From Haloplanus ruber (GTDB lineage Archaea; Halobacteriota; Halobacteria; Halobacteriales; Haloferacaceae): 64,000 nt of DNA. The stretch is taken from positions 62,001 to 126,000 of the forward strand of contig NZ_JANHDK010000005.1 in assembly GCF_024494725.1 (NCBI RefSeq). The letters are read 5' to 3'. The translations under genes and the position numbers were made by a program. The notes beneath the pieces were generated by a model that was not told where the DNA came from, ran no database searches, and saw only the letters and a program-made list of their open reading frames with translations. This document shows, in pieces, positions 2,357-21,106 of this stretch (within the stretch, counting starts at the first letter, position 1; each line of letters begins with the position of its first letter).

Positions 2357-2596
2357 CGACCGTCTCCAGGCACACCCGGCGCTTATACCTCCGTTTCGGG
2401 GTAGTGCCGTACACCGAACGTCGATACAGGAACCGAGTTCGGTGAACGACGATACATCCGCTCTGAACGGACAGTGACGTATCCGCTGGCTCCCTACACC
2501 GGTACGCTGGGACGCTCCGGTTCTATGTATAATAATTCAACGTACGTGAGTACACGGAAAGGGACACATAAGAGTCACCACCCGTAACGGCCGTCG
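2357..2596. promoter_or_regulatory. Divergent promoter region between two exchanger genes
   Basis: This 240-bp gap holds no plausible gene. An AT-rich TATAATAATT block lies near 2528-2537 in otherwise GC-rich DNA. A second TATA-like element (ACATAAGA, about 2566-2573) is spaced about 27 bp from the ATG at 2597, fitting a leaderless transcript of the plus-strand exchanger. A promoter for the minus-strand exchanger is expected here too, but I cannot place it firmly. Confidence 0.4.
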
Positions 2597-4431: not shown

Positions 4432-5559
4432 ATGCAACGGACACCGACGAGACGGTCGTTTCTCGTCACGGCGGGGGCGACGGGAGCGACGGGGCTCGCG
4501 GGCTGTCTCGGCGGGACCGACGGCGGCGACGCCGGCGACGGAGCCGACGGAACGGCGACGCCGACCGCCCCCGACGAGACGCCGACCGGAACCACTACGG
4601 GCACGCCGATTCCGGGGGAGTCGTCGCTGTTGCTCAACTGGAAGCCGAGCGGTCTCCACGTCCCCTACTTCGCCGCGAAGGCGAACGGCTTCTACGAGGA
4701 GGAGGGACTGACGCTCTCGACCATCGAGACGGGCGAGGGGTCGACCTTCTCGGCGAAGCAGGCCGGCCTCGGCAACACCGACTTCGCGATTTCGAGTAGT
4801 GACCAAGTGTTGAACGTCAACAGCCGCGATCTCTCGCCGCTGTCGGTCGGCGTCGTGATGCAGAAAAGCCCCGCCGTGGTGTTCTCGACCCGCGACACCT
4901 TCGGGGAAGAACTGAGCGACGTCGAGGCACTCGCCGGCAAGACCGTCGGTACCGGCCCGGGGATGGTGCGGATGCTCACCACCCTCCTCTTGGAGGAGGC
5001 GGGCATCCGCGAGGACGTCGAGATGGTCGACACGGGGTACGACACCGTCCAGCAACTCCTCTCGGGCAAAATCGACGCCGCCGGGGGCGTCTTCGGTGAC
5101 GCCATCAGCGCCGAGGCGCAGGGCTACACCGTCGACAGCATCCCCGTCGCCGACACTATCCCCGCCTACGGGCACGTCGTCACGGTGAACCGCGACTGGG
5201 CGGCCGCGAACGACGAGGCGGTCCGGGCTTTCCTGCGGGCGACCGCCCGCGGCGCCGCGTGGGCCCACCGGCGGCCGGGTGACGCGACCGAGTTGCTCGT
5301 CGAGGCCAACGGGGTTCTCGCGGAGTCCCGCGAGCAACAGCGACAGAAGTGGGAGACTCTGGCACAGGAGTTCATGCTCGGTGACGCTGTCGAGCAGAAC
5401 GGCTGGGGGTGGAGCGAGGCCGAACCCTGGCAGGTGAGCCACGACGCCCTCGCGGACGCCGACGCCCTCGGTGGCGAGGTCGACCCGACCGCCGTCTGGA
5501 CCAACGACTACCTCGACACCGACTCCCCGTATATCGGCTCGTATACGGACCAGCTCTGA
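4432..5559 (+). CDS. ABC importer substrate-binding lipoprotein, NMT1/THI5-like (SsuA/ThiY class)
   Basis: Extracellular solute receptor of an ABC importer (375 aa). The N-terminus has a twin-arginine start (RRSFLVTAGATGATGLAG) ending in a lipobox with Cys at LAGC, then a Gly/Asp/Thr linker to about residue 60. The type-II SBP fold begins with LNWKPSGLHVPYFAAKANG, the NW-P-G signature of the NMT1/THI5-like family, and ends with a WGWSEAEPWQ segment and WTNDYLD. The stop overlaps the next permease (TGATG), so the two are co-translated. Related proteins in the window are an HTH fusion (7882) and a cytosolic one (17066). Possible substrates include pyrimidines, riboflavin-like compounds, sulfonates or nitriles; none can be picked from sequence. 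Confidence 0.85.
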   Translation: MQRTPTRRSFLVTAGATGATGLAGCLGGTDGGDAGDGADGTATPTAPDETPTGTTTGTPIPGESSLLLNWKPSGLHVPYFAAKANGFYEEEGLTLSTIETGEGSTFSAKQAGLGNTDFAISSSDQVLNVNSRDLSPLSVGVVMQKSPAVVFSTRDTFGEELSDVEALAGKTVGTGPGMVRMLTTLLLEEAGIREDVEMVDTGYDTVQQLLSGKIDAAGGVFGDAISAEAQGYTVDSIPVADTIPAYGHVVTVNRDWAAANDEAVRAFLRATARGAAWAHRRPGDATELLVEANGVLAESREQQRQKWETLAQEFMLGDAVEQNGWGWSEAEPWQVSHDALADADALGGEVDPTAVWTNDYLDTDSPYIGSYTDQL

Positions 5560-6362
5560 TGGCGACCACCGACCGGCGCCTCCCGTCGGTCGACGCCCCG
5601 ACGGCGAGCGGCGGCGTCGTCCGCACCGCCGTCGGCTACGTCTGGCCGCCAACCGCGGTGTTGGTCGTCGTCGTCGCTTGTTGGCGGTGGTTCGTGACGA
5701 CGACCGGTGTTCCGGCCGTCATCCTCCCCGGACCGACCGACGTCGGGACGGCCTTTCTCGCCGCCCGCGGAACCCTGCTCGCGGCGGCAGGGGTGACGGC
5801 GACGACCGCGGCCTTAGGGCTGGCCGGCGGGGTCGTCGTCGGTCTCACGCTCGCCTTCACGATGGTCTGGTCGCGGGCCGCGTCGGCGGTCCTTCACCCC
5901 TACCTGATCGCGTTGCGGATCGCCCCCCTCGTCGCCATCGCACCCCTCCTCTTTCTCTGGATCGGTGACGGGGTCGTCGCGCGAGCGACGCTCGTCACCA
6001 CGCTGACGGTGTTTCCGGTCGCCATCGCGTCGGTCGACGGTCTCCGGTCGGTTCCCCGGGAGTACGTCGACCTCGCGCGCTCGGTCCGGGCGCCACCGAT
6101 CCGAACCTTTCTCCGGGTTCGGGTGCCGGCGGCCGCGCCGAGCGTCTTCGCGGGCGTGAAACTCGCGGCGGCGCTGTCGGTCGTTGGGACTGTCGTCGCG
6201 GAGTTTCTCACCCTCCAGTCCGGGCTGGGCTATCAACTCTTTCACACCGCGGAGTTCCTGCAGACGAGCACCACCTTCGCGGCCCTCGGGACGCTCACGC
6301 TGCTCGGTCTCGTCTTTTATCTCGTCCCCGCGGCGGTCGAGCGGCGACTGGACTGGGGCTGA
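5559..6362 (+). CDS. ABC importer permease (SsuC/ThiX-like)
   Basis: Inner-membrane permease of 267 residues from the ATG overlapping the SBP stop; this coupling decides the start. About six membrane segments are visible, beginning YVWPPTAVLVVVVACWRW. The cytoplasmic coupling loop (EYVDLARSVRAPPIRTFLRVRVPAAAPSVFAG) follows the EAA pattern that contacts the ATPase. It abuts, stop to stop, the second permease gene on the other strand (6363). The two permeases are related but clearly distinct, suggesting a heterodimer served by the single ATPase at 7115. Confidence 0.85.
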   Translation: MATTDRRLPSVDAPTASGGVVRTAVGYVWPPTAVLVVVVACWRWFVTTTGVPAVILPGPTDVGTAFLAARGTLLAAAGVTATTAALGLAGGVVVGLTLAFTMVWSRAASAVLHPYLIALRIAPLVAIAPLLFLWIGDGVVARATLVTTLTVFPVAIASVDGLRSVPREYVDLARSVRAPPIRTFLRVRVPAAAPSVFAGVKLAAALSVVGTVVAEFLTLQSGLGYQLFHTAEFLQTSTTFAALGTLTLLGLVFYLVPAAVERRLDWG

Positions 6363-7118
6363 CTACCCCCACGTTACGGCGCGCTGACAGAGCAACACGC
6401 CGCCGTAGAGTCCCAATCCGATGGGCAGGAGAACCGCGAGCGCCGCGAGCATCACGTCGACCTGGACGTTCTCGGAGGCGGCCAGGATCAGTGCGCCCAA
6501 GCCGTCGTTCGAGAGGATCCACTCGGCGACGACGGCCCCGACGACCGACAGTGTCACCGCCTGTTTCAGCCCCGCGAACACGTCCGGGAGGGCGTGTGGC
6601 AGCCGCACCGACAGGAAGGTTCGGAGTGGATCGGCGTCCACGGACCGGAGCAAGTCGAGATGGGCGTCGGGCGTCCGCGACAGGCCGGCGGCGGTTCCGA
6701 CCACGACGGGGAAGAAGACGACGAGGGCAACAAAGAGGACCGCCGTCTCGAAGCCGACGCCGAAGTAGATGAGAAAAACGGGCGCGACGGCAATCTTCGG
6801 CAGGACGCGGGCGGCGACGAGGTAGGGGTAGAGCGCCCGCCTGAGCAGTGGGATCGTCGTGACGAGTACGGCCAGTGTGAAGCCGGCGGTGACCCCCGCG
6901 GCGCCGCCAACGAGGATCTTCCGGAGCGTCTCGACGGCGTTGGTCAGATACAGCTCCGGATTGCCGACCAGACGGGCGAGGACGGCGGCCGGCGACGGCA
7001 ACAGGAAGGGCGGAACAGCGAAGGCGACGGTGACCGCCCACCAGCAGGCGACGGCGACGACCAGCCCTGCGAGCGGCAACGTCGCGTCGGGAAGCGGCAC
7101 GCGGTCAGCGACGCTCAT
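6363..7118 (-). CDS. ABC importer permease (SsuC/ThiX-like), second subunit
   Basis: A 251-residue permease with about six membrane helices, starting after LPDATLPLAGLVVAVACWWAV. The EAA-type loop reads LLRSVDADPLRTFLSVRLPHALPDVFAG. Its ATG overlaps the stop of the upstream ATPase gene (ATGA), so it is third in the minus-strand operon HTH-SBP, ATPase, permease. Together with the plus-strand lipoprotein and permease this completes one importer encoded by two convergent operons. Confidence 0.85.
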   Translation of the reverse strand: MSVADRVPLPDATLPLAGLVVAVACWWAVTVAFAVPPFLLPSPAAVLARLVGNPELYLTNAVETLRKILVGGAAGVTAGFTLAVLVTTIPLLRRALYPYLVAARVLPKIAVAPVFLIYFGVGFETAVLFVALVVFFPVVVGTAAGLSRTPDAHLDLLRSVDADPLRTFLSVRLPHALPDVFAGLKQAVTLSVVGAVVAEWILSNDGLGALILAASENVQVDVMLAALAVLLPIGLGLYGGVLLCQRAVTWG

Positions 7119-7885
7119 GTGTCGCCGTGGAGCGCTCCGCGGACCCGGGCGACCTGTGCCCCGAAGGTCTCCGACCCGAAGACCGACTCGTCGCGCGGCC
7201 GCGAGAGATCGATGTCGAACTCGGCGACGATCCGTCCGGGCGAGCCGTTGGCGGCCGGATCGGCGTCGCCGTCGGCTGCGACCACGAGACAGCGGTCGCC
7301 GAGGAAGACCGCCTCGGGGACGCTGTGGGTGACAAACACCACCGTCTTACGGTTCTTGCGCCAGAGCCGGAGGATTTCGACGCCCATCTCGTCCCGCGTA
7401 ATCTCGTCGAGTTCACCGAACGGTTCGTCCATGAGCAACACGTCGGCGCCGAGGTGAACCGCGCGGGCGATGGCGACCCGCTGTTTCATGCCGCCCGAGA
7501 GTTCTGACGGGCGGGCATCCTCGAAGCCGTCGAGACCAGTCGTGGTAAGGAGGTCCCGTGCCCCCGCCGGATCGGGGTCCTTTCCGGCCATCCGCCGCAG
7601 GAAGGTGACGTTCTCGACGGCCGACTTCCAGGGGAGGAGCGTGTGATCCTGAAAGACGAACCCGAGGCGGGCCGCCGACTGAGCGACTTCCGGCGGGTCG
7701 CCGTCGACGGTGACCGTGCCGGTCGTCGGTTCCTGCAAGCCGCCAATAGTTCGGAGGAGTGTCGTCTTCCCGCATCCGGAGGGGCCGACGACGGTAACGA
7801 ACTCCCCCTCGTCGACGTCGAGGTCGACGTCGGCGAGCGCGTCCACGTCGTCGTAGCTAACCGAGAGATTCTCCGCGTGAATCAT
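7115..7885 (-). CDS. ABC importer ATP-binding protein (SsuB/ThiZ-like)
   Basis: Cytoplasmic ATPase that drives the importer (256 aa from the chosen ATG). Walker A is GPSGCGKTT, the signature is LSGGMKQRVAIARA, Walker B is DVLLMDEPFGELDE, and the switch histidine lies in VTHSV. A longer reading frame extends 20 codons upstream, but the ATG at 7885 overlaps the stop of the preceding gene (ATGA) and gives the family-typical N-terminus MIHAENLSVSY. It ends by overlapping the permease ATG at 7118. Confidence 0.88.
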   Translation of the reverse strand: MIHAENLSVSYDDVDALADVDLDVDEGEFVTVVGPSGCGKTTLLRTIGGLQEPTTGTVTVDGDPPEVAQSAARLGFVFQDHTLLPWKSAVENVTFLRRMAGKDPDPAGARDLLTTTGLDGFEDARPSELSGGMKQRVAIARAVHLGADVLLMDEPFGELDEITRDEMGVEILRLWRKNRKTVVFVTHSVPEAVFLGDRCLVVAADGDADPAANGSPGRIVAEFDIDLSRPRDESVFGSETFGAQVARVRGALHGDT

Positions 7886-9159
7886 AATGCGTCGGCCTGA
7901 TCGAGGGCGATCCGGAGGCGTTGCCACGTCTCCCCGGAGTGCCACCCCCAGCCGTTCTTTTCGACGGCGTCGCCGCCGGCGAAGCGGTCGAGTGCCTGCG
8001 TGAGTTTGCGGCGTTCGGCCGCGGCCGCCTCGTCACTCCGGTCGACGACGGCGTCGACTGCCGCCGCGGGGTCGGTCCGGGCGGTACTCCACCCGTCCAT
8101 CGCGCCCTCGAGGAACGCCCGGAGCGCTTCGGGGCGGTTCCGAAGCGTCTCCCGGCGGACCACGAAGGCGGGGCCGGGAACCGGGAAGTGCTCGGCAACC
8201 AGCACCGAATCGACATCGTGGCCGTCGGCCGCCAGCTCCAGCGGGTCGGTGAACACGCCCGTCGCCACGTCGGCGTCGCCACGGAGCAGCGCTGCGCGCT
8301 CCTCGCCCTCGGCGCGGACGACGGTCACGTCGTCGACGACGCCGGCCTGCGACAGGAAGAGGCGTCCGAGCGCGCCGGTCTCGGAGCCGGCCGGCATGGC
8401 GACCCGCCGACCGCGGACGTCCTCGACGCTCCGAAGCGGGCCACCGAACCTCCCCCGTGTCGTATAGAGGACGACCATCGCCCGCTGGTAGTAAAGGGCC
8501 AGCGGGACCACATCACGTCCCTCTGCGTGCGCGCGAAGGAAGGTGGCTGCACCGGTGAGTCCAACGTCCACCTCACCCTCAGCCACCCTCGACAGGGCGG
8601 CGGCGGAGCCACGACACCCCTCGAAGGCAACGTCCGCGTCGTACGTTCCCGCGAACAGCGGGGCGTGGAGGCCGTTTGGGTCCCAGTTTAACCCAACCTC
8701 GACGGGTCGCCCGTCGTCCCCCCGGGCGTCGGCGTCGACGGAGATGTCGTCGCCGAGGGTCGCGGCGACCGTCGCCGCCCGGTCGAGTAGCGCCTCGGAG
8801 TGGCAGGCACGCACGCGGGCGGCCGTCCGGTCGAAGCCCGCGTCGGCCCGCCAGCCCTTTGGCGGTCGGCCCGGCGCCTCGCTCCGGACGGTCGTCTCGG
8901 TGATCAGTCCGTCGTCGGTGAGGGCCGCGAGTACGTCCGAGACGCGACCACGGCCCAGGTCGACGCCCACGCGGACGGCCAGCCGCGACGCCGCCTCGCC
9001 GGAGAAGCGATCGGACTCCTCGCGGGCGACCAAGTAGGCGAGAACGCGCGCAGCCTCGCGGTCCAGCCCCGCGGCAAAGGCTTCGACCGCTCGTTCGTCC
9101 TCGTCCCCGAGAACCGGAAACTCTCGAACTCGCACGTCCGGCCATTCGCTCCGATGCAT
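7882..9159 (-). CDS. HTH domain fused to an NMT1/THI5-like substrate-binding domain; putative one-component sensor
   Basis: A 425-residue protein with no signal peptide. Residues about 25-120 look like a TrmB/MarR-like winged helix (AARVLAYLVAREESDRF, then RGRVSDVLAALTDDGLI and a GRPPKGW wing). From about residue 155 comes a complete SBP-like domain opening with VGLNWDPNGLHAPLF and closing with EKNGWGWHSGETWQ, the same signatures as the lipoprotein at 4432. I infer a cytoplasmic regulator that senses the imported ligand directly. It heads the operon with the ATPase and permease. The ATG at 9159 is used here; however, a TATA box at 9160-9166 is only about 27 bp from an in-frame GTG at 9135, so the leaderless start may be there. 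Residues may therefore shift by eight. Confidence 0.75.
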   Translation of the reverse strand: MHRSEWPDVRVREFPVLGDEDERAVEAFAAGLDREAARVLAYLVAREESDRFSGEAASRLAVRVGVDLGRGRVSDVLAALTDDGLITETTVRSEAPGRPPKGWRADAGFDRTAARVRACHSEALLDRAATVAATLGDDISVDADARGDDGRPVEVGLNWDPNGLHAPLFAGTYDADVAFEGCRGSAAALSRVAEGEVDVGLTGAATFLRAHAEGRDVVPLALYYQRAMVVLYTTRGRFGGPLRSVEDVRGRRVAMPAGSETGALGRLFLSQAGVVDDVTVVRAEGEERAALLRGDADVATGVFTDPLELAADGHDVDSVLVAEHFPVPGPAFVVRRETLRNRPEALRAFLEGAMDGWSTARTDPAAAVDAVVDRSDEAAAAERRKLTQALDRFAGGDAVEKNGWGWHSGETWQRLRIALDQADAL

Positions 9160-9168
9160 ATATAAACT
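9160..9168 (-). promoter_or_regulatory. TATA box of the HTH-SBP/ATPase/permease operon
   Basis: On the minus strand GTTTATATAT lies directly before the ATG at 9159. Standard haloarchaeal spacing would put transcription start near 9136, inside the annotated ORF and next to an in-frame GTG at 9133-9135. This favours a shorter, leaderless protein. No TTCC/GGAA palindrome is visible near this promoter. Confidence 0.45.
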
Positions 9169-9249
9169 GCCGGCGATCTCCCGTGCATCGAGTTGGGCAT
9201 CGTACACGTTCTGCCGTGTGTGTGGGAGTCTTTGCCGAGACTTCATCAG

Positions 9250-9256
9250 GTTTATT
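9250..9256 (+). promoter_or_regulatory. TATA box of the halocyanin-like gene
   Basis: TTTATTA within GGTTTATTAGATTAAAACC, centred about 27 bp before the ATG at 9281, fits a leaderless transcript and supports 9281 as the start rather than the longer frame. Confidence 0.5.
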
Positions 9257-9280
9257 AGATTAAAACCGAAGTTCGACCCG

Positions 9281-9817
9281 ATGGTTTCGAAGGAGTTCCT
9301 GTCACGACGGAAATTCGCAGCCACGTTCAGCGGCGCCGTGCTCGCCGGCCTCGCCGGCTGCGGCGGTGGCGGCGGCAGCAGTGATGGTGGCGACGAAGCG
9401 ACGGCGACGCCAACCGATACCCCGGAACCGACGGCGACGGAGACAGCGACGGCGACGGCGACGGCGACGTCGACCCCAGCCAGCGAGGCGGACGCGACGA
9501 TCACCGTGGGACCCGGTGGAAGCCTCCAGTTCGAACCGGCGACCACCGCCGTCTCGCAGGGCGATACCGTCGAGTTTGTCTTCGACTCCGGCGGCCACAA
9601 CGTCTCGGGGCATCCGGATGCTCACTCCCAGGTGTCGCTCCCGGAGGGTGCCGAGCCGTTCGCGTCCTACGACATCTCGGGTGACGACATCAACCACCTC
9701 TCGCTCAATCAGGCCGGGTCGACCTACCGGCACACGTTCGAGACCACCGGCCAGTACACGTACGTCTGTGTTCCCCACGCCGCGTCGGGGATGGTCGGCA
9801 ACATCACGGTTCGCTAG
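9281..9817 (+). CDS. Halocyanin-like blue copper lipoprotein (plastocyanin fold)
   Basis: A 178-residue extracellular electron carrier tethered to the membrane. The N-terminus is a Tat lipoprotein signal (SRRKFAATFSGAVLAGLAGC), followed by a Gly-rich and Thr/Glu/Ala-rich linker to about residue 65. The cupredoxin domain has the four type-1 copper ligands: His in GGHNVSG, then Cys, His and Met in YVCVPHAASGM (C-x2-H-x4-M spacing). It sits just upstream of the PQQ alcohol dehydrogenase operon on the same strand, so it is a natural electron acceptor for that enzyme. It has its own promoter; a longer frame to 9218 is not used. Confidence 0.88.
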   Translation: MVSKEFLSRRKFAATFSGAVLAGLAGCGGGGGSSDGGDEATATPTDTPEPTATETATATATATSTPASEADATITVGPGGSLQFEPATTAVSQGDTVEFVFDSGGHNVSGHPDAHSQVSLPEGAEPFASYDISGDDINHLSLNQAGSTYRHTFETTGQYTYVCVPHAASGMVGNITVR

Positions 9818-9942: not shown

Positions 9943-9962
9943 AGACAATTCCTTCGCTACAT

Positions 9963-10895
9963 ATGGAGTGGTATGGCATGTCGCAATATGTAAACGGAAT
10001 GCCCCAGATCGACCAAGAGGATCGACGGCAGTTCCTCAAGGTCGTCGGGTTGACCGGCGCAGTGGCAGCAGGTAGTGAGTTCACCCTGAGCGACCTCAGG
10101 GGAGAAGTAGAAGGGGAGACGGCGGGGGAACTCGCCGCCATGGGGGAGGCCATCAGCGACGACCTGACGGGCGAACTCGACGCGAGTCTGCTCGGTGGCG
10201 AACTCGTGGCCCTCGAAGAACAGATCGCCCAGTTGGACGAGCTTCGGGCGATGGGCGTCCCGGCCGAGGACAGTACGGCCTATCAGGAGCTCGCCGAGCC
10301 CGGGTGGGCAATCCACGAGCATCTCGTCGAAGTCGGCTTCTTCGAGAGCGCCGAGGAGCACCTTCCCGAGTTCAGCCCCGAACACATCGGGGCGACCGCG
10401 CGGGAGTTCATCAACACGCCTGTGTTGGCATCCGCGCTCCTCGAACTCGGCTACACCGAGTCCGAGCTCACCTCGACGATGGTCAACGTCGTCAACAACA
10501 AGGAACGGCTGGCGATGTGGGTGCCCACGAAGAACATCCCCGCCGGCGTCGAAGGGTTCGATCCCGCGAACGTGGCTCCGCTCCACCAGCGAGCGGCCGC
10601 CGGCACCCTGTTGTGGACCGATTACCTCGATACGTACCTCTGGCAGAACGAGGTACTCCTGACCGACACCATCCTCGACAACAACTACGGTGACCTCAAG
10701 CAGATGTACGCCGGACTGCATCTGCTGGCCAACGCCGCCGAGGACCTCGCGGGCAGTCAGGAACTCGGCGACGCACAGCTCACCGCCGCGCTCTCGGCGG
10801 GCGCGGCGATGATGATCGTCGGACAGGAGGACCTGACCAACGACGTGATGCGCATCACGGACGAAATGCGCGCCCCACGCACGGGAGGTGCGTAA
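9963..10895 (+). CDS. Tat-exported partner subunit of the PQQ dehydrogenase (unknown family)
   Basis: A 310-residue protein I do not recognise by family. Residues about 20-40 carry a twin-arginine signal (DRRQFLKVVGLTGAVAAGS). The rest is acidic and mostly helical, with no cysteine at all, so it is not a c-type cytochrome or Fe-S protein. The stop is three bases before the ATG of the PQQ dehydrogenase, which has no export signal of its own. I infer that the two form a complex in the cytoplasm and the dehydrogenase is carried out by this subunit's Tat signal. ATGs at 9978 and 9999 are alternative starts; 9963 fits the TATA spacing best. Confidence 0.6.
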   Translation: MEWYGMSQYVNGMPQIDQEDRRQFLKVVGLTGAVAAGSEFTLSDLRGEVEGETAGELAAMGEAISDDLTGELDASLLGGELVALEEQIAQLDELRAMGVPAEDSTAYQELAEPGWAIHEHLVEVGFFESAEEHLPEFSPEHIGATAREFINTPVLASALLELGYTESELTSTMVNVVNNKERLAMWVPTKNIPAGVEGFDPANVAPLHQRAAAGTLLWTDYLDTYLWQNEVLLTDTILDNNYGDLKQMYAGLHLLANAAEDLAGSQELGDAQLTAALSAGAAMMIVGQEDLTNDVMRITDEMRAPRTGGA

Positions 10896-10898
10896 CGC

Positions 10899-12623
10899 AT
10901 GGCTAGCATTCACGAACACGACAAGGCGGTACAGGCGGCACAGAACATCGAGATGGTGGAGGTTGAGGACGGCTACACGCTGACCAACCTCCCTGACGAG
11001 TCGATCACGCAGCAGTTCGACATCGATCAGATCCCACAGCAGGACGTCACCCAGGACATGCTGAATCAGTCGGCCAAGGAGAATCCCGAGGCCTGGCTGA
11101 TGTACGGCGGTGGCTATCAGCAGCAGCGCCACACGTCCGCGGACGTGATCACGCCGGACAACGTCGAGGGACTCGAACTCGAATATCTGGTCCAGAGCGG
11201 CGTTGCCTCCAGCATGGAAGGCGTGCCGATTGTCGTGCCCGGCGATCCGCCGGTCATGTACCAGACCAACGGGCCGAACCACGCGAAGGCGATCAACGCC
11301 CGCACCGGCGAGACCCTCTGGAGTTACACGTACGCCAACCCGCAGGGGCTGCTTCTCTGCTGTGACGCGAACAACCGCGGGTTCGCCGTCCACGGCGACA
11401 AGGTCTTCATGACCACCCTCGACTCGGGTATCGTCGCGCTCGACCGATACACGGGCGAAGAGGCGTGGTACACCTCGACCGGTGACCACGAGATCGGTTA
11501 CTCCGCGACGTGGGCGCCGATTGTCTACGACGGGCAGGTCATCACCGGCTCCGCCGGCGGCGAGTACGGTGTCAGCGGCTTCGTCGCCGCTCTCAACCCC
11601 GAGGACGGCTCCGAAGTCTGGCGCACGAACACGACGCCGGCCGAGGAGTGGGCCGGCGACTCCCACGAACACGGCGCCGGCACCGTCTGGATGACGCCGA
11701 CGCTCGATCCCGACACCGGGATGATCCACGCGCCGGTGGGCAACCCCGGTCCGGACTTCGACGGCACCGTCCGTCCCGGTCCGAACCGCTACACCATCGG
11801 GACGCTCACCATGGACGCCAGCGATGGCTCCATCCAGTGGCACTACGGCGAGAGTCCCCACGACGTCTGGGACTACGACTCCTCGGCGCCCAAGATCCGT
11901 GTCAACGACATGGAGATGGACGGCGAGACGCGCGACGTGGTGCTCAGCCCCGGCAAGACCGCCTGGGTGTACACCATGGACGCCGAGAACGGGCAGTTGC
12001 TCCAGCGCTCTCAGGAGACGACCCAGCACATCAACATGTGGAAGATGGTCCCGCACGCAGACGAGGACCGACGGGTCGCCTTCGTGCCCGGTGCACACGG
12101 TGGTAACGACTGGCAGCCGCCGTCGTACAACCCCGAGACGGGGCTGATGTACCTGAACCAGAACAACGCGCCTCACGAGATCTTCTGGGAGGAGGCGCAG
12201 TACGAGGCGGGCCAGACCTACTGGGGCGGCGGCCTCAACGACTGGCCCGACGTCGACGCGCCGGACAACTGGAACGGCAACCTGAGCGCCATCGTTGCCG
12301 TCGACCCGGCTACCGGCGAGCGCGTCTGGCGTGACTGGATCTCCTCGGACACCACGAGCGACTACCTCTGGGGCGGTTCGATCACGACCGCGTCCGGCCT
12401 CACGTTCGCCGGCACCCAGAACGGCAACCTCGTCGCCTACGACGGCGAGAACGGCGACCGGCTCTGGCAGTTCCAGCTCGGCGCGCCGATCTGCTCGTCG
12501 CTGTCCAGCTGGTACGACCCCGGCGAGGGCAAGCAGTACGTCGCGGCCCAGGTTGGCGGCTCCGGCTGGCTCCACGGCGGCCGTCGTGGCTCCACCGTCG
12601 CCGTCTTCGGCCTCAGCGAGTAG
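10899..12623 (+). CDS. PQQ-dependent alcohol dehydrogenase with lanthanide-type active site (XoxF/ExaF-like)
   Basis: An eight-bladed quinoprotein (574 aa) predicted to oxidise an alcohol and pass electrons to an external carrier. Blade motifs such as ALNPEDGSEVW and AVDPATGERVW are visible. The vicinal disulfide Cys154-Cys155, hallmark of methanol/ethanol dehydrogenases, is present. By alignment with methanol dehydrogenase the metal/PQQ site is Glu222 (GGEYGVSG), Asn282 (VGNPGP) and catalytic Asp325 in PHDVWDYD. The extra Asp327 two residues later is the residue that distinguishes lanthanide enzymes (XoxF) from calcium enzymes. There is no signal peptide; export probably depends on the preceding Tat subunit. 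Copper proteins on both sides are likely acceptors. No PQQ biosynthesis genes lie in this window. Confidence 0.85.
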   Translation: MASIHEHDKAVQAAQNIEMVEVEDGYTLTNLPDESITQQFDIDQIPQQDVTQDMLNQSAKENPEAWLMYGGGYQQQRHTSADVITPDNVEGLELEYLVQSGVASSMEGVPIVVPGDPPVMYQTNGPNHAKAINARTGETLWSYTYANPQGLLLCCDANNRGFAVHGDKVFMTTLDSGIVALDRYTGEEAWYTSTGDHEIGYSATWAPIVYDGQVITGSAGGEYGVSGFVAALNPEDGSEVWRTNTTPAEEWAGDSHEHGAGTVWMTPTLDPDTGMIHAPVGNPGPDFDGTVRPGPNRYTIGTLTMDASDGSIQWHYGESPHDVWDYDSSAPKIRVNDMEMDGETRDVVLSPGKTAWVYTMDAENGQLLQRSQETTQHINMWKMVPHADEDRRVAFVPGAHGGNDWQPPSYNPETGLMYLNQNNAPHEIFWEEAQYEAGQTYWGGGLNDWPDVDAPDNWNGNLSAIVAVDPATGERVWRDWISSDTTSDYLWGGSITTASGLTFAGTQNGNLVAYDGENGDRLWQFQLGAPICSSLSSWYDPGEGKQYVAAQVGGSGWLHGGRRGSTVAVFGLSE

Positions 12624-12644
12624 CGACTCCGACCGACTTCTCCG

Positions 12645-12650
12645 TTTTTT
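12645..12650 (+). terminator. Oligo-T terminator after the PQQ dehydrogenase
   Basis: A run of six T about 20 bp after the stop, in GC-rich surroundings, is the usual haloarchaeal transcript end. No strong hairpin precedes it. Confidence 0.45.
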
Positions 12651-12679
12651 CACACCCTCTAGCGGTGGATTTAGCTATT

Positions 12680-12743: not shown

Positions 12744-13400
12744 ATGGCGACGCGAAGAACGTTCCTGATCGGCGCTGCAGCAACGACGGCGGGACTAGCC
12801 GGTGCCGTGGGCTCGGCGACGGCCCAAGCCCAGACTTTCGAACTCGAACTGACCCAAGAAGGGTTCGTCGGCCGTGCGCCCTCCAGCATCGAGGGCGAGG
12901 CCAATCCGACCCTGGAGGTGGAAGCGGGACAGAACTACGCCATCCAGTGGACGAACAGCTACAACCCCGAGTCGGAGGGGATCCCAGCGCGACACAACCT
13001 CGTGGTCACGACCTCTGATGGCGTCGTGCGCCGGGGAGAGTACGTCTTCGAGACGGGACAGACCCGCACGATCCAGTTCCAGGCCCGATCCGGCCTCTCG
13101 GAGTACTTCTGTGAGGAGCACATGGGTGAAGGCGGCGAGTTCAACGTCGCCGGTGGTTCCACGGCAACGGCCACCGAGACGAGCGGCGGCGACATGGAGG
13201 GCGGCGACGGCGGCGACGGTGGCGACATGGAAGGCGGCGATGGTGGCGACGGCGGCGACATGGAGGGCGGCGACGGCGGCGACGGTGGCGACGGCGGCGA
13301 GGAAACCTCGGGTGGCGGTCCCGGCTTCGGTGTCGGTGCAGCCCTGACGGCCCTCGGCGCGGGCGCCTACGGTGCCCTCCGACGCGGTAGCGACGACTAG
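12744..13400 (+). CDS. Cupredoxin-like surface protein with PGF-CTERM anchor
   Basis: A 218-residue secreted protein. It begins with a twin-arginine signal (TRRTFLIGAAATTAGLAGAVGSATAQA), then a cupredoxin-like domain (about 30-135) with candidate copper ligands His in ARHNLVV, and Cys and His in YFCEEHMG. The Met directly follows the His instead of lying four residues on, so the axial ligand is uncertain. A Gly/Asp/Met repeat linker follows. The tail GGGPGFGVGAALTALGAGAYGALRRG is a PGF-CTERM signal: archaeosortase would cleave it and attach a lipid. Its place right after the PQQ dehydrogenase suggests a role in the same electron chain. Confidence 0.8.
   Translation: MATRRTFLIGAAATTAGLAGAVGSATAQAQTFELELTQEGFVGRAPSSIEGEANPTLEVEAGQNYAIQWTNSYNPESEGIPARHNLVVTTSDGVVRRGEYVFETGQTRTIQFQARSGLSEYFCEEHMGEGGEFNVAGGSTATATETSGGDMEGGDGGDGGDMEGGDGGDGGDMEGGDGGDGGDGGEETSGGGPGFGVGAALTALGAGAYGALRRGSDD
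13188..13286 (+). repeat. Three tandem 33-bp repeats encoding GGDMEGGDGGD
   Basis: Copies at 13188-13220, 13221-13253 and 13254-13286, starting GGCGACATGG; copies 1 and 3 appear identical and copy 2 has a few silent changes. They encode the linker between the cupredoxin domain and the PGF-CTERM anchor, so copy number could change the length of the stalk. Confidence 0.85.
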
Positions 13401-13419: not shown

Positions 13420-13444
13420 CGATGCGTACTCCCAACGGGAGGTG

Positions 13445-14209
13445 ATGAGTATTCGCTCGGTCGGAGACCGGCTACGCCGTCCGGAGTATACGGGTGAGAA
13501 CCGCTGTCTCCCGTGTACCGTGGTGAACGTTTGTCTCGTCGTCGTCGCCGCCGCAGTCGCGGCCGTTCCACTCGGCCCACCCGGCGGCCTCGCCGTTCTC
13601 ACCGTCGGTCTCGGGGCCATCTACTTCCGGGGGTATCTCGTCCCCGGTACGCCGGCGCTGACGGCACGATACTTCCCGCCGTGGCTGCTCGAACTGTTCG
13701 GGAAGGAACTCGAACTCCGCGAGACGCTCGTCCCCGTCGAGGATGTGGCTGTTCGCTCGACGGCCGAGGGCGGGCGCCTGACCGACGACTTTGCCGCCGC
13801 GTGGGACGCCCGGATCGAGCGGATGCGCGAGGCGGGCGTCTCGGACGACGACGTGGCGACGCTGTTGGGCGTCGAGTCGGCGTCAAGCGTGTCGGGTGAC
13901 GTAGCCTACGTCGTCGACGGTGGCCTCAGACAGTGGCTCTCGACGTCTGCGCTCCTCGCCGACGCTGCGGCCGCGGCCGTTCTCGACGCGCGTGGCGGCG
14001 AGGCCTGGGCGGCGCTCGCCCCGGACGAACGGGTCGCGACGCTCCGTGACCTTCGGAAGTTCCTCGGATACTGCCCGGGTTGTGGCGGCGCCCTCGACGA
14101 AGAGGAGACTGAGACGGTCGAAACCTGCTGTACGGAATCCGAACGCGTGCTGATGGCGACCTGCGTAGACTGTGACGTTCGGTTGATCGAGGACCTCGGA
14201 GAGCGTTAG
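13445..14209 (+). CDS. Membrane protein with C-terminal zinc ribbon, unknown function
   Basis: A 254-residue protein of no family I recognise. Two hydrophobic segments (about residues 23-60: VVNVCLVVVAAAVAAVPLGP and LAVLTVGLGAIYFRGYLV) precede a soluble acidic domain. A CLPC pair sits near the N-terminus, and the C-terminus has CPGCGG, CC and CVDC, giving several possible metal pairs. A sequence matching the anti-Shine-Dalgarno complement (GGAGGTGA, about 13438-13445) overlaps the start codon itself, which is unusually close. The gene ends 4 bp into the convergent formate dehydrogenase gene. Confidence 0.6.
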   Translation: MSIRSVGDRLRRPEYTGENRCLPCTVVNVCLVVVAAAVAAVPLGPPGGLAVLTVGLGAIYFRGYLVPGTPALTARYFPPWLLELFGKELELRETLVPVEDVAVRSTAEGGRLTDDFAAAWDARIERMREAGVSDDDVATLLGVESASSVSGDVAYVVDGGLRQWLSTSALLADAAAAAVLDARGGEAWAALAPDERVATLRDLRKFLGYCPGCGGALDEEETETVETCCTESERVLMATCVDCDVRLIEDLGER

Positions 14210-16332
14210 TCGTCGGCCGGCGCGTCGGTGGTGTCCGGATCGACGCTAACCTCGATTTCCGCGGCGGCGGCCTTGTACTCGGGAATCTTCGCGCGTTCGT
14301 CGAGCACGTCGTTGGTGAGCCGGTTGCCCGCCGCGTCGGCGAAGTGGGGCGTCGTCCAGACGGTGCCCTCTTTGATGTCTTCGGTGACCCGGGCCTCGAC
14401 CTCGATCTCGCCGCGCCGGGAGGTAAGCGTCACGTAGTCGCCGTCCTCGATGCCGTACTCCTCGGCATCGTTCGGGTGGACGTCGACGAAGTTCTCCGGT
14501 TCGACGCGGGTGAGCGTATCCGAGCGCCGACTCATCGTCCCCGTGTTGTAATGTTCGACGATCCGGCCGGTGGTGAGAATCAGCGGGTACTCGTCGTCGG
14601 GAACCTCCTTCGGCGGCTGGTGGCGGACGCCTTCGATCTGCCCGCGGCCGCTCTCGGTCGTGAAGCCGTCATCGTAGAGGTAATCGTCACCCTCGTCGCC
14701 CGGTTCGTAGCAGGGCCAGTGGATGCCCTCCTCGCCCAGGCGGTCGTAGGTCATGCCGTGGAAGATGGGCGCGACCTGCCGAAGTTCCTCGAACACTTCC
14801 TCGGGGTCCTCGAACGCAAAGGAGTCGTCGTCGAACAGCCGTTGCCCGACGTCACACAGGATCTCGAGGTCGTCTTTCGTGTTCGGGTGGACTTTATCGA
14901 CACCGCGCATCCGCTGGGTCCGGCGGTCCGTGTTGACGACGGTCCCGTCGCGCTCCGCCCACGAGGTGGCAGGCAGGATCACGTCGGCGTACTCCGCGGT
15001 TTCGGTCTTGTAGATGTCCTGCACCACCATGAAGTCGAGTTCCTCCAGACGCTTCTCGACCTGGTTGGTGTCGGGTTCGCTCATCACTGGGTTCTCGCCC
15101 ATGATGTAGAGCCCCTGGACCGTGTTGCCAATCTCGTGGGACACTTCGACGTTCGTCAGGCCAGGTTCGGCCGGGACCTCGAAGCCCCAGACCTCCTCGA
15201 CGTCCGCGCGCACCTCGGGATCGGACACGTCGCGGTAGCCCGGCAGAACGTTCGGCATCGCCCCTACGTCGGAGGCACCCTGGACGTTGTTCTGGCCGCG
15301 GAGTGGGTTGACGCCCGTCCCCGGACGGCCCAGGTTGCCCGTGACCAGTGCGAGGTTGATCTCGTTTTGGACGTTGTCGACGCCGCAGGTGTGTTGGCTC
15401 ATCCCCATGCCGGTGAAGATGGCGGCGTTGTTCGCCATCGCGTACTTCTCGGCGGCGAGTTCGATGTCCTCCAAGGGGACGCCACACTCCTCGGCGGCGG
15501 CCTCCTTATCGAAGTCCTCCAGCGTCTCTTTCAGATCCTCGAAGCCTTCCGTGCGCTCGGCGACGAACTCCTCGTCGACCCAGTCGTTCTCGAGGACCGT
15601 TTTGAGAACGATATTAAGGAGGGGGATGTCGGTCCCCGGCTCCAGCTGGAGGTGCATGTGGCGGTCGGTCTCGTCGATCTCGAACGACCGCGACGTCTTG
15701 TTGGCGTGGGGGTCGACCTGGATGACGGTCGCCCCCTCCAGCACGGCCTGTCGGAAGTACTGGCTGTTGGCGATGGGGTGTTGTTCACCGGGGTTTGCGC
15801 CTTGGATCCAGAACACGTCGGCCGCCTCCTCCAAGTCGGCCATGCTGTTGGTCATGGCGCCCTCGCCCAGACTGTTTTTGAGCGCGTACACCGTCGAGGA
15901 GTGGCACATCCGCGTACATGTGTCGACGCTGTTGGTGCCGTAGTGGCGGGCGAGCTTCTGGATGAGGTAGTTCTCCTCGTTCATGGCCTTCGAACAGCCG
16001 TAGAAGCCCATCGCCTGCGGGCTGTGGTCGTCACGGATGCGCTCCATGTTGTCGATGACCAGGTCGTAGGCCTCCTCCCACGTGGCCTCGTGGAACTCGC
16101 CGTCGTCGCCGCGGATCAGTGGGTCGGTCAACCGGTCCTCGTGGTTGACCGACTGGGTCGCCGCACCACCCTTGATACAGATGCTCCCCTCGTTGACGGG
16201 GGCGTCGCCCCACGGCCGGAACGTGACTTCGCCCTCGTCGTCCTGTGCAATCTGGATTCCACATCCAACACCGCAGTAGGGACAGATAGTCTTGGTCGGT
16301 CCGTCCGATTCACCGCTTGATTGGGATGACAT
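14206..16332 (-). CDS. fdhA: Formate dehydrogenase alpha subunit (molybdopterin oxidoreductase)
   Basis: A 708-residue molybdenum/tungsten enzyme predicted to oxidise formate to CO2. The N-terminal [4Fe-4S] site is Cys17, Cys20, Cys24 and Cys52 (CPYCGVGC, SICIKGG). Cys143 in TCTRMCHSS is the metal ligand that is selenocysteine in some bacterial enzymes. The C-terminal molybdopterin-dinucleotide domain (TTGRIVEHYNTGTMSRR, PLRGQNNVQGASDVG) is complete. There is no Tat signal, so it should be cytoplasmic. The chosen ATG at 16332 gives the family-typical N-terminus; a TATA-like TATAAT lies just before it. No beta or gamma subunit gene is next to it. Confidence 0.88.
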   Translation of the reverse strand: MSSQSSGESDGPTKTICPYCGVGCGIQIAQDDEGEVTFRPWGDAPVNEGSICIKGGAATQSVNHEDRLTDPLIRGDDGEFHEATWEEAYDLVIDNMERIRDDHSPQAMGFYGCSKAMNEENYLIQKLARHYGTNSVDTCTRMCHSSTVYALKNSLGEGAMTNSMADLEEAADVFWIQGANPGEQHPIANSQYFRQAVLEGATVIQVDPHANKTSRSFEIDETDRHMHLQLEPGTDIPLLNIVLKTVLENDWVDEEFVAERTEGFEDLKETLEDFDKEAAAEECGVPLEDIELAAEKYAMANNAAIFTGMGMSQHTCGVDNVQNEINLALVTGNLGRPGTGVNPLRGQNNVQGASDVGAMPNVLPGYRDVSDPEVRADVEEVWGFEVPAEPGLTNVEVSHEIGNTVQGLYIMGENPVMSEPDTNQVEKRLEELDFMVVQDIYKTETAEYADVILPATSWAERDGTVVNTDRRTQRMRGVDKVHPNTKDDLEILCDVGQRLFDDDSFAFEDPEEVFEELRQVAPIFHGMTYDRLGEEGIHWPCYEPGDEGDDYLYDDGFTTESGRGQIEGVRHQPPKEVPDDEYPLILTTGRIVEHYNTGTMSRRSDTLTRVEPENFVDVHPNDAEEYGIEDGDYVTLTSRRGEIEVEARVTEDIKEGTVWTTPHFADAAGNRLTNDVLDERAKIPEYKAAAAEIEVSVDPDTTDAPADD

Positions 16333-16474
16333 TATACGTGAACTTCCGTACGGTCGAACATCAATGTTGTCATCCCATACCGTGTAAAGACAGCTCAAAC
16401 GGCGGTTCACGTCGGCACACGTGGATATTTTGGCAAACGGAAACGTTCACCCGTTCGGGGGTTGTAATCCCTGT

Positions 16475-17065: not shown

Positions 17066-18034
17066 TTACCGGCCGATCCGCTCGGCGTAGTCGGCGATCA
17101 CCGGGTCCGAGCCGTCGACGTACTCGTTCGTCCACGCCGCCGCGGGGTCGACCGGTGATTCGAGCAGATCGGTCTCGGAGAGCATCTCGGCCAGGTTTTC
17201 CCAGCGCCGTTCGTCGAAGTGTCCCCACCCCGCCTCGCGGACGAACTCGGTGAACTGCAGATCCTCCGCGGAGGCCAGGAACTTCATGTGCTCTACCTCG
17301 CGGTTGTGTTCGAGCTGTGCGTTCCGGTCGATCAGGGCGTCGACCGCTCGCTCGGGATCCGTCGTCGCCGCCTCCCAGCCCCGTGCGGTCGCCCGCAGGA
17401 ACGACCGCACCGTCTCGGGGTTGGCCTCGGCGAACTTGGGGTTGGCGACGACCGTCATCCCGTAGACGTCGAGGTAGTCGCCGATGAGGAGTTCGTCTGC
17501 CGTCCGGTCGTACTCGCGTTCGAGTTCCTTTCCGTTGGTGACGACGCCCACCGCGGCGTCGACGTCGCCGTCGAGCAACTGGTGTTCGACGCGGTGATGG
17601 GTGTGTTTCTGGACGTCGTGAACCTCGACATCCTCCCGGATGCCCCGGTCTTCGAGCAACTGGAGCGTCAGGATGCGGGTTTTCGTCGCCGACGGCGCGA
17701 CCGTCCGTCCACGAAGCTGTTCGGGTTCGGTGAAGGGGTCACCGAACACGTCCCGGAGGCTGTATATGGTCGCGGGGGTCTTCTGGCTCACCGCGGCGAC
17801 AGCCAGCGGGTCGAGGCCCTGACTCCGCACCGAGAGGACAGCGCTTCCGCCGGCGAGTCCGAGGTCGCTCCGCCCCTTGGCGGTCTGTTCCGCGGCGAAC
17901 GGCGATCCGTGGCCCTCGACGAACTCGACGTCGAGTCCCTCGTCCGCGAAGAACCCCTCGCGGCGCGCGAGGAAGTACGGTGCCTGAAAGCCGTTCGGTT
18001 CCCAGTTCAACTGGAAGGTGACTGTCTCCGTCAT
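17066..18034 (-). CDS. Cytosolic NMT1/THI5-like substrate-binding-fold protein
   Basis: A 322-residue type-II SBP-fold protein without any signal peptide. It starts FQLNWEPNGFQAPYFLARREGFF and ends with REAGWGHFDERRWENL and AWTNEYV, clear homology to the importer lipoprotein at 4432. In yeast THI5, which uses this fold to make HMP-P, the catalytic Lys62 and His66 align here with Ala61 and Ala65, and the Cys-rich motif is absent; so this is not a THI5 enzyme. Instead there is a histidine cluster at 139, 144, 146, 147 and 151 (HDVQKHTHHRVEH), where the transporter homologue has no His. I infer a cytosolic enzyme or binding protein for the same ligand class. Its ATG overlaps the stop of the upstream gene. 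Confidence 0.7.
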   Translation of the reverse strand: MTETVTFQLNWEPNGFQAPYFLARREGFFADEGLDVEFVEGHGSPFAAEQTAKGRSDLGLAGGSAVLSVRSQGLDPLAVAAVSQKTPATIYSLRDVFGDPFTEPEQLRGRTVAPSATKTRILTLQLLEDRGIREDVEVHDVQKHTHHRVEHQLLDGDVDAAVGVVTNGKELEREYDRTADELLIGDYLDVYGMTVVANPKFAEANPETVRSFLRATARGWEAATTDPERAVDALIDRNAQLEHNREVEHMKFLASAEDLQFTEFVREAGWGHFDERRWENLAEMLSETDLLESPVDPAAAWTNEYVDGSDPVIADYAERIGR

Positions 18035-19023
18035 GGATCGGTCTCGAACGTTCTCTCGGGAATCTCCGCGACACCGAGCGCCTCCGCGCCGGCGACGGCC
18101 TTGAGGTGGTCGAACAGTCGGTACATCCCGTCGACACTGTCTTGATCCCAGTCGCGGACGACCATCTCTCGCCAGCCGTCCCGGACCGCCCGCATGACCG
18201 CGGGGTCGTCGTAGCTCATGAGTTTCTCGCTGATCTCCACCCAGAGGTCGTCGTCCTCGACGAGACGGTCGACGGCGTCGCGGTAGGCCGCGGTAAACGC
18301 CCGTACCGTCTCCCGCTGGCCGTCCAAGTACGACTCGCTGGTCAGGAAGGCGGCGATGGGGAGTTTGTTGTCGGTTTCCGAGAGCCGCTGGACCAGTTCC
18401 GACATGGGAAGGACCTCCTCGAACGGCCCGGTCTCGGTAATCTCCGGGACGATCTGCCAGAACTGGAGACCGGCGTCGACCTCTCCCTCGCGGATCATCC
18501 GCGTCAGTTCGACCTTCGATCCCGCCTCGACCGGGGTGGCCGTCTCGTCGGGGTCGAAGTCGTGGTACTCGCGGCAGGCCGCCCGCGTTAGAATCCAGTT
18601 TTTGTCTAGTCGGCGAACGACGCCGATCCGATGCCCCGACAGATCCGTCAGCCCCTCGATGTCGGAGTCCTCGGGGGCGACCAGGCCACCCACGGTTCGC
18701 CCGTAGGGGTGGAAGGCGACGATGTCCGCCCCCTCGGCGCGTTCCCGTGCGATAGAGATGTAGTCGATGTCGATGAGGTCGGCGTGGCCTTCCTGCAGTT
18801 GGGCCTCGACCGTCTCGATGCCGTCTTCGAGGGCATCGGAGACGAGTTCGACGTCGAGGTGGAAGTCGTGGTCGCGGTCGAAGCCGAACCGCTTGATCGT
18901 ATAGAGGAGATACCGGGGGCTACCGTTGTGTTCGAACCGGGCGCGCATCGTCGGTAGCTCTCCCGGATCGTCGTGGTGTTCGTCGAGGACGGCCTGTTGG
19001 GCGTCGACGTGACTCCGACTCAT
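18031..19023 (-). CDS. Cytosolic SBP-fold protein, tandem paralogue A
   Basis: A 330-residue protein of the SBP superfamily without a signal peptide, roughly three quarters identical by eye to the gene at 19202. Shared blocks include HNGSPRYLLYTIKRF, HPYGRTVGGLVAPE and NWILTRAACREYH; the last holds the only clearly conserved cysteine. The fold is also used by enzymes such as 4,5-dihydroxyphthalate decarboxylase, desulfinase DszB and MqnA/MqnD, but I cannot assign a reaction. Start: ATG at 19023, whose first bases overlap the stop of a 31-codon leader frame (ATGA). The stop overlaps the ATG of 17066. Confidence 0.65.
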   Translation of the reverse strand: MSRSHVDAQQAVLDEHHDDPGELPTMRARFEHNGSPRYLLYTIKRFGFDRDHDFHLDVELVSDALEDGIETVEAQLQEGHADLIDIDYISIARERAEGADIVAFHPYGRTVGGLVAPEDSDIEGLTDLSGHRIGVVRRLDKNWILTRAACREYHDFDPDETATPVEAGSKVELTRMIREGEVDAGLQFWQIVPEITETGPFEEVLPMSELVQRLSETDNKLPIAAFLTSESYLDGQRETVRAFTAAYRDAVDRLVEDDDLWVEISEKLMSYDDPAVMRAVRDGWREMVVRDWDQDSVDGMYRLFDHLKAVAGAEALGVAEIPERTFETDP

Positions 19024-19115
19024 CGTCGACCTGCGGGTGAGGTGAACCGTGGCGACTCGGCGCCGGGAGGCGTCGCTTCCCGACGGGGTGTCACAGGAAT
19101 CTCGTGGATCGGCAT
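19020..19115 (-). CDS. Possible 31-residue leader peptide coupled to the SBP-fold gene
   Basis: A short frame beginning MPIHEIPVTPRREATPP whose ATG (19115) is 27 bp from the TATA box at about 19141-19146, exactly where a leaderless transcript would begin. Its TGA overlaps the ATG of the following gene. No ATG in the frame of that gene exists near the predicted transcription start. It could be a real small protein, or a leader whose translation delivers ribosomes to the main gene. Amino-acid content (Pro/Arg-rich) is not typical of a conserved protein. Confidence 0.35.
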   Translation of the reverse strand: MPIHEIPVTPRREATPPGAESPRFTSPAGRR

Positions 19116-19136
19116 ACCCGCAAGGTACGACCGTAT

Positions 19137-19159
19137 CTTGATAAACTTTCCTCGGAAAG
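19137..19159 (-). promoter_or_regulatory. Palindromic operator and TATA box of the 18031/17066 operon
   Basis: The palindrome CTTTCC-TC-GGAAAG spans 19146-19159; on the minus strand it runs directly into the TATA box GTTTATCAA. It matches the operators at 4388 and 21116 in the TTCC...GGAA core, but with a spacer of two instead of three. The flanking TTGATAAAC-TTCCTC stretch also recurs almost unchanged at 4380-4394. Confidence 0.55.
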
Positions 19160-19201
19160 GTACTTCCGTTCCGGCCCACCCGGCACGCTCACGGCCCGAA
19201 G

Positions 19202-20191
19202 TCAGGGATCGGGCCGAAAGGTACCCTCGGGAATCTCTGCGACTCCGAGTGCGTCCGTGCCGGCGACGGACCGCAGGTGATCGAACAGGTGACACATTCC
19301 GTCGACGCTGTCTCGGTCCCAGTCTCGGACGACCATCCCGCGCCAGCCGTCGCGGACCGCCCGCACGACCGTCGGATCGTCGTCCATCAGCCGGTTGCCG
19401 ATTTCCGTCCAGAGGTCGTCGTCGTCGACGAGGTGGTCGACGGCGTCGCGGGCGGCCGCCCCAAACGCCCGCACCGCCTCCCGGTGTGCCGCCAGATACG
19501 ATTCGCCGGTGACGAAAGTCGCCATCGGGAGCTTCCGGTCGGTTCCGGAGAGTCGCTGGACTAGCTCCGACACCGACAGGACCTCCGTGTACGGTCCCGT
19601 TCGGGTGAGTTCGGGGACGAGCGGCCAGAACTGGAAGCCGGCGTCGACCTCCCCCTCGCGGATCAGCCGCGTGAGTCCGTCCCGCGATCCGGCTTCGACG
19701 AGGGTGACCGTCTCCGCGGGGTCGAAGCCGTGGTACTCGCGGCAGGCCGCCCGCGTCAGAATCCAGTTTTTGTCTAGCCGGCGCGTGACGCCGATCCGAC
19801 GCCCCGACAGATCCGTCAGTCCCTCGATGTCGGTCCCCTCAGGGGCGACCAGGCCGCCCACGGTTCGCCCGTAGGGGTGGACGGCGACGACGTTCGCGCC
19901 CGCCGCCCGCTCTCGGGCCACGGAAATGAAGTCGGTGTCGACCAGATCGGTCTCGCCGCCGTCCAGTCGGTCTCGGATCGTCTCGATCCCGCTTTCGAGG
20001 TCGTCGGACGCCAGTTCGACGTCGAGGTGGAAGCCGTGGTCGTGGTCGAGGTCGAATCGCTTGATCGTATAGAGGAGATACCGGGGGCTGCCGTTGTGTT
20101 CGAACCGGGCGCGCATCGTCGGCAGCTCCCCCGGGCCGTCGTGGTGTTCGTCGAACGCCGCCCGCTGGCTGTCGATGTGGCGACGACTCAC
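19202..20191 (-). CDS. Cytosolic SBP-fold protein, tandem paralogue B
   Basis: A 329-residue duplicate of the gene at 18031 (SRRHIDSQRAAFDEHH, HNGSPRYLLYTIKRF, NWILTRAACREYH). I start it at the GTG 20191, which overlaps the stop of the upstream gene (GTGA) and aligns with the Met of paralogue A; a longer frame to 20257 would overlap the upstream gene by 70 bp. There is no signal peptide. Long runs of near-identical DNA with 18031 indicate a recent duplication. About 86 bp separate its stop from the promoter of paralogue A. Confidence 0.65.
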   Translation of the reverse strand: MSRRHIDSQRAAFDEHHDGPGELPTMRARFEHNGSPRYLLYTIKRFDLDHDHGFHLDVELASDDLESGIETIRDRLDGGETDLVDTDFISVARERAAGANVVAVHPYGRTVGGLVAPEGTDIEGLTDLSGRRIGVTRRLDKNWILTRAACREYHGFDPAETVTLVEAGSRDGLTRLIREGEVDAGFQFWPLVPELTRTGPYTEVLSVSELVQRLSGTDRKLPMATFVTGESYLAAHREAVRAFGAAARDAVDHLVDDDDLWTEIGNRLMDDDPTVVRAVRDGWRGMVVRDWDRDSVDGMCHLFDHLRSVAGTDALGVAEIPEGTFRPDP

Positions 20192-21084: not shown

Positions 21085-21106
21085 ACATTCAGGGTACAAC
21101 CGTAAT

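Follow-up and report, generated by a model that had tools for sequence, protein, structure and literature searches.

The gene at positions 10899–12623 (+ strand) of the window (the whole 64,000-nucleotide stretch of Haloplanus ruber DNA that was analysed) encodes the catalytic subunit of a PQQ-type quinoprotein alcohol dehydrogenase (PQQ-ADH) of 574 aa, which carries the D-x-D motif of lanthanide-type metal sites and is paired with a partner protein encoded directly upstream. Our overall reading, which we hold with somewhat more confidence than doubt, is that of a quinoprotein alcohol dehydrogenase encoded by two genes in haloarchaea, with a metal site of the lanthanide type, most likely exported with its partner and probably using scavenged PQQ. 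Among the new results, those that weigh most are an obligate partner found only in haloarchaea, the lack of a signal peptide and the absence of the PQQ pathway.

An earlier, sequence-only reading had assigned this open reading frame to the PQQ alcohol dehydrogenases, and its coordinates, its length and its Pfam and PedH matches all agree with that assignment. The frame has a GC3 of 0.90 and is preceded by a GGAGGT ribosome-binding site (10884–10889, + strand) within the 3' end of the partner gene. The host genome measures 3.28 Mb, and the enzyme is 91% identical to the copy in a Haloplanus MAG. Two other frames were set aside: the antisense open reading frame 9957–12653 (898 aa) was judged a shadow from its GC pattern, and a PQQ_2 match at 11252–11641 fell in an 892-aa frame that contains stops, and this match belongs to the annotated frame. 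The Pfam family PQQ (PF01011) matched over the entire propeller (E = 1.8e-55; 189.3 bits, gathering threshold 26.7). The best PDB sequence matches were to PedH (6zcv/6zcw, E = 1.3e-73 for 6zcv), followed by XoxF. With the predicted model, Foldseek gave the same ranking, PedH and XoxF being the nearest solved structures, and VIA-align placed these two level with other solved PQQ dehydrogenases (Z 33–37); the AlphaFold model is weak near the active site, with pLDDT below 50 at residues 319–328. The designation "methanol/ethanol-type" given previously is loosely right, but the score against TIGR03075 (PQQ methanol/ethanol dehydrogenases) was 389.1 bits and thus below the curated cut-off of 480.05. 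TIGR03074, the model for membrane glucose dehydrogenase (Gcd), gave 123.6 bits against 832.65, and the 574-aa protein has no membrane domain.

With regard to the active site, the residues named previously (C154–C155, E222, N282, D325 and D327) are all present and correctly numbered, and they align with the PedH/XoxF site. Alignment with the XoxF and ExaA structures showed that the WDYD motif is in register: it corresponds to WDFD of PedH and WDYD of XoxF (6dam), and to WDFS and WDYT in the calcium enzymes ExaA (1flg) and quinohaemoprotein (1kb0), respectively. Conservation was assessed in 31 haloarchaeal relatives, including paralogues at 34–40% identity to the dehydrogenase. Five residues, all encoded on the + strand, are invariant in this set: Trp264 (11688–11690), expected to stack on PQQ; the predicted metal ligand Asn282 (11742–11744); the putative catalytic base Asp325 (11871–11873); the extra Asp327 (11877–11879), which is replaced by Ser or Thr in the compared calcium enzymes; and Lys353 (11955–11957), located near PQQ at the Arg331/Lys position of MDH/quinohaemoprotein ADH. 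The metal ligand Glu222 (11562–11564, +), within a GGEYG motif, is Glu in 25, Asp in four and Tyr in two relatives, and the residue preceding it is Gly as in PedH/XoxF, not Asp as in ExaA. The vicinal disulfide pair Cys154–Cys155 (11358–11363, +) aligns with the CC of PedH, XoxF and ExaA and is found in 15 of the 31. Across the whole set, invariance is limited to 42 of 511 columns. The conservation of W264, N282, D325, D327 and K353 while the rest of the protein diverged to 34% identity therefore speaks for selection on the PQQ/metal site, i.e. for a functional site.

In our tree, 27 haloarchaeal sequences formed a single clade (SH-aLRT 100) apart from XoxF5, PedH/ExaF, ExaA and a quinohaemoprotein ADH. 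The enzyme thus lies outside the PedH/ExaF (type 2b) clade and outside XoxF as represented by XoxF5 only, since MxaF and other XoxF types were left out of the tree. With PedH/ExaF, the lanthanide ethanol dehydrogenases that include its best PDB match, it shares D-x-D, GGE, CC, Asn and Trp; it differs from them, besides its separate clade, in having Lys353 where they have Arg and, following D-x-D, SSAP where they have GVNE, in having an obligate partner but no signal peptide, and in its adjoining genes for cupredoxins rather than cytochrome c. The XoxF methanol dehydrogenases have the same residues in common with it (GGEFG in XoxF), whereas the haloarchaeal enzyme stands outside their clade in a genome without PqqC; no cytochrome cL/XoxJ-type neighbours were seen. 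The calcium enzymes (ExaA, MxaF and quinohaemoprotein ADH) share the fold, the CC and the catalytic Asp, but differ in the Ser or Thr at the position of Asp327, or Ala in the case of MxaF, and in the Asp or Ala preceding the position of Glu222. The closest plasmid-borne bacterial relatives seen were WDLD quinoproteins of Paraburkholderia and Alloyangia (loci L064 and L065; 36–37% identity), which share HDVWDLD..SPP and the KTG motif but possess their own signal peptide and no partner gene; in Alloyangia a cytochrome c4 gene adjoins.

The extra Asp in place of Ser constitutes the difference between PedH (lanthanide) and PedE (Ca) (PMC5487730), and judging from the aligned sequences it separates lanthanide from calcium enzymes within the methanol/ethanol clades. 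D-x-D has been used as a lanthanide marker in a study that predicts m-GDH to be metal-promiscuous and notes that GDH can form complexes with any of Ca, Mg, Zn and Sr (PMC11996626). The marker role earlier ascribed to this Asp thus holds for PedH/XoxF as opposed to ExaA, but it is not exclusive to lanthanide enzymes, because E. coli Gcd also has WDMD (HHDLWDMDLP). Gcd, a glucose dehydrogenase, is active with Ca/Mg. At the second position after the catalytic base, none of the 31 relatives has the Ser, Thr or Ala of the calcium type (ExaA/MxaF); all have Asp, as would be expected of a lanthanide-dependent PQQ-ADH. Since Gcd shares D-x-D and the haloarchaeal clade is separate from the confirmed lanthanide clades included in the tree, we consider the metal site to be lanthanide-compatible on sequence grounds, while the family itself is not a confirmed lanthanide family. 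The earlier proposal of a lanthanide-type PQQ alcohol dehydrogenase consequently stands as regards the type of site, with D-x-D plus G-G-E and with PedH/XoxF nearest, whereas lanthanide use is only plausible. Given this type of site, a light lanthanide would be the likeliest physiological metal, a view to which we incline slightly, with Ca or Mg as the alternative.

According to this alternative, which we consider a serious contender although we tend to doubt it, the same enzyme would work with Ca2+ or Mg2+ like membrane glucose dehydrogenase, and the second Asp would be ancestral and no sign of lanthanide use. Apart from its presence in Gcd, D-x-D occurs in many parts of the tree, namely in haloarchaea, Deinococcus, Paraburkholderia, XoxF, PedH and Gcd itself, and Ser/Thr is confined to ExaA and the quinohaemoprotein branch; three Na/Ca-exchanger genes in the window, and exchanger genes beside four other copies of the enzyme, also fit with it. 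On the other hand, the remaining site is PedH/XoxF-like (GGE motif, N and CC) while Gcd is without the GGE motif, and the closest solved structures are lanthanide enzymes. The three exchanger-family genes are consecutive (38–3757) and could bear on metal supply; the other copies with adjoining exchanger genes are those of loci L013, L021 and L025 and of a Halomarina plasmid (L063).

The partner gene (9963–10895, + strand) encodes a protein of 310 aa with a Tat-like N-terminus (RRQFLKVVGLTGAVAAG) and stops 3 bases short of the dehydrogenase start codon. Relatives of the partner were found directly upstream and on the same strand at all 103 well-matched PQQ-ADH copies, which are distributed over 69 genomes. 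Among 107 partner matches four seemed to be unpaired, but three of these adjoin a more distant PQQ-ADH (32–34% identity) and the remaining one is a degenerate copy beside a dehydrogenase that is likewise broken (locus L106, G192:C1:1280000–1283500). The partner was absent from the 12 bacterial PQQ-ADH loci examined, none was seen outside Halobacteria in the phylum sample, and the plasmid records holding it are all haloarchaeal. In the records covered, the partner thus occurs only in haloarchaea and is obligately paired with PQQ-ADH. The two genes lie in one frame here, but a fusion by stop-codon read-through was rejected because their frames differ in loci L019, L024 and L027. The family had no match in Pfam, NCBIfam, PADLOC or PDB. 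Its predicted model is all-helical (mean pLDDT 88), and the best hits obtained with it, a Foldseek E of 0.17 and a VIA-align Z of 7.6 to unrelated helical bundles, amount to noise for helical proteins. Comparison with the PqqC and TenA profiles gave an hhalign probability of 0.1 to both, although a missing profile match leaves a shared fold possible. The Tat signal family PF10518 was recognised in four of 15 partners (best 3.2e-4), the Haloplanus partner scoring 14.5 bits against a cut-off of 22.7.

No signal peptide was present at the N-terminus of the dehydrogenase or of any catalytic subunit seen among its relatives, and an N-terminal extension of the Haloplanus protein is excluded by the TAA stop at 10893–10895, just upstream of its start. 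An analogous arrangement, a signal-less catalytic subunit with a small subunit bearing a Tat signal, exists in the FAD fructose/gluconate dehydrogenases, which have no sequence relation to the present enzyme and use flavin, not quinone. Most likely the dehydrogenase and its partner form a complex, and co-export of the folded complex appears to be the likeliest route in Haloplanus. What counts against this step is that the RR motif is missing from the partner in Natrialbaceae, Halomarina and another group. In most of the RR-less groups a gene with a Tat-type signal lies 6–56 bp downstream of the dehydrogenase, and the two such proteins that were scanned carry Copper-bind; this downstream protein could stand in for the export role of the partner in those groups, but not in Halomarina, which has neither an RR motif in the partner nor a secreted cupredoxin downstream.

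It is conceivable, though in our view unlikely, that some members of the family, at the least, function in the cytosol, next to ferredoxin and aldehyde ferredoxin oxidoreductase (AOR), instead of at the cell surface. This would agree with the signal-less catalytic subunits and with the situation in Halomarina, where ferredoxin and AOR-type genes are found nearby, as well as with the AOR-type genes near loci L021, L025 and L026. In Haloplanus, however, the two cupredoxin-like proteins encoded nearby are both secreted, the partner begins with a Tat-like sequence, and the enzymes of this kind known to us are all extracytoplasmic.

The first of these cupredoxin-like neighbours (12744–13400, + strand) is a small secreted protein with a Tat-type signal (RRTFL), a PGF-CTERM anchor (27 bits, above the cut-off) and a cupredoxin-like C..H motif; it had no match in the Pfam scan, but related proteins beside other PQQ-ADH copies carry Copper-bind. 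The second (9218–9817, + strand) is a halocyanin/plastocyanin-type lipoprotein (Copper-bind, 4.9e-17; plastocyanin/halocyanin models). We infer that the former is the likely electron acceptor, with the halocyanin as the alternative. A number of other genes recur in the neighbourhood. The regions 4432–9600 and 17066–21099 encode an ABC transporter and several substrate-binding proteins of the NMT1/SsuA type, which are also seen beside other PQQ-ADH copies; one of the binding proteins (7882–9600, − strand) appears to be fused to an N-terminal regulator-like part. A 255-aa protein with a zinc-ribbon-like Cys pattern at its C-terminus and no family match (13442–14209) is found near 15 of 18 PQQ-ADH loci, and a formate dehydrogenase alpha subunit (14206–16410, − strand; TIGR01591, 751 bits) near 10 of 18, in varying arrangements. 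AOR-type genes, present near loci L063, L021, L025 and L026, may possibly represent the next step after alcohol oxidation. The recurrence of formate dehydrogenase and AOR-type neighbours nevertheless fixes no substrate.

The search for pqq genes elsewhere in the genome, suggested in the sequence-only reading, was negative for PqqC, so that by this measure the organism is not autonomous for PQQ. Moreover, none of 391 Halobacteria genomes had PqqC above the cut-off in a profile search (highest score 19.4 bits); on S. meliloti pSymB, the positive control, this model scored 428.9 bits. PqqB was not found above the cut-off in the 22 genomes holding the enzyme, and PqqE searches of the Haloplanus genome returned weak radical-SAM matches (best 94 bits, cut-off 381). 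A TENA_THI-4 gene of the same genome (locus L032) was considered as PqqC, but was not recognised by the PqqC model. One other genome, which is without PqqC, encodes a PqqB-like metallo-hydrolase (G190, L076:1495–2286) that matches the whole model below the cut-off, with 113.7 bits. PQQ is thus either scavenged or made by a so far undescribed route; uptake from outside the cell, not synthesis by the known route, is the probable source, and it is also the simple answer because bacteria that use PQQ enzymes without making PQQ are many (PMC12124388). That the family was kept and multiplied although no PQQ synthesis was found counts against our overall reading. The missing pathway would also suit a protein that does not use PQQ in the cell, being an apo propeller or using another quinone, but this is improbable in view of the PQQ/metal residues that stay invariant in the 31 relatives and of the PQQ-importing bacteria just mentioned.

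In the mechanism that we favour, the 574-aa eight-bladed propeller would bind PQQ acquired from outside the cell, and Glu222, Asn282, Asp325 and Asp327 would hold a single metal ion. Asp325 would accept a proton while the alcohol hydride moves to PQQ, and the electrons would exit singly to one of the two cupredoxins and then to the respiratory chain. Through the Tat-like signal that some of the partners possess, the helical protein and the dehydrogenase would leave the cell together.

The family is a common accessory gene of Halobacteria and not peculiar to one genome, because 69 of the 391 Halobacteria genomes carry copies, several in some of them. To our knowledge, the biochemical demonstration of lanthanide-dependent metabolism is confined to PQQ alcohol dehydrogenases of bacteria. 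No report of haloarchaeal lanthanide or PQQ alcohol dehydrogenases was found in a literature search with little coverage of subscription journals. Archaeal D-x-D quinoproteins as such are already known, since DYD PQQ-dehydrogenases have been published for marine heterotrophic Thaumarchaeota (PMC7300363). Some of these have D-x-D, and electron transfer to quinone or blue copper proteins has been proposed for them, but none has the CC, signal peptides or membrane spans are found in most, and they are reported to have a PQQ synthase (PMC7300363). The copy in Haloplanus is therefore not singular.

A more far-reaching reading, which we consider less likely than not, is that these lanthanide quinoprotein alcohol dehydrogenases form a class peculiar to haloarchaea, in which a dedicated helical partner of novel fold would be needed for assembly, PQQ loading or co-export, copper proteins would replace cytochrome c, and PQQ would be scavenged or supplied by an undescribed route. 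The findings raise the questions of where haloarchaea obtain PQQ, what the partner does, and by which route a signal-less quinoprotein reaches a copper acceptor. Whether archaea use lanthanides would become testable with a haloarchaeal family that can be cultured and whose lanthanide-type site is intact.
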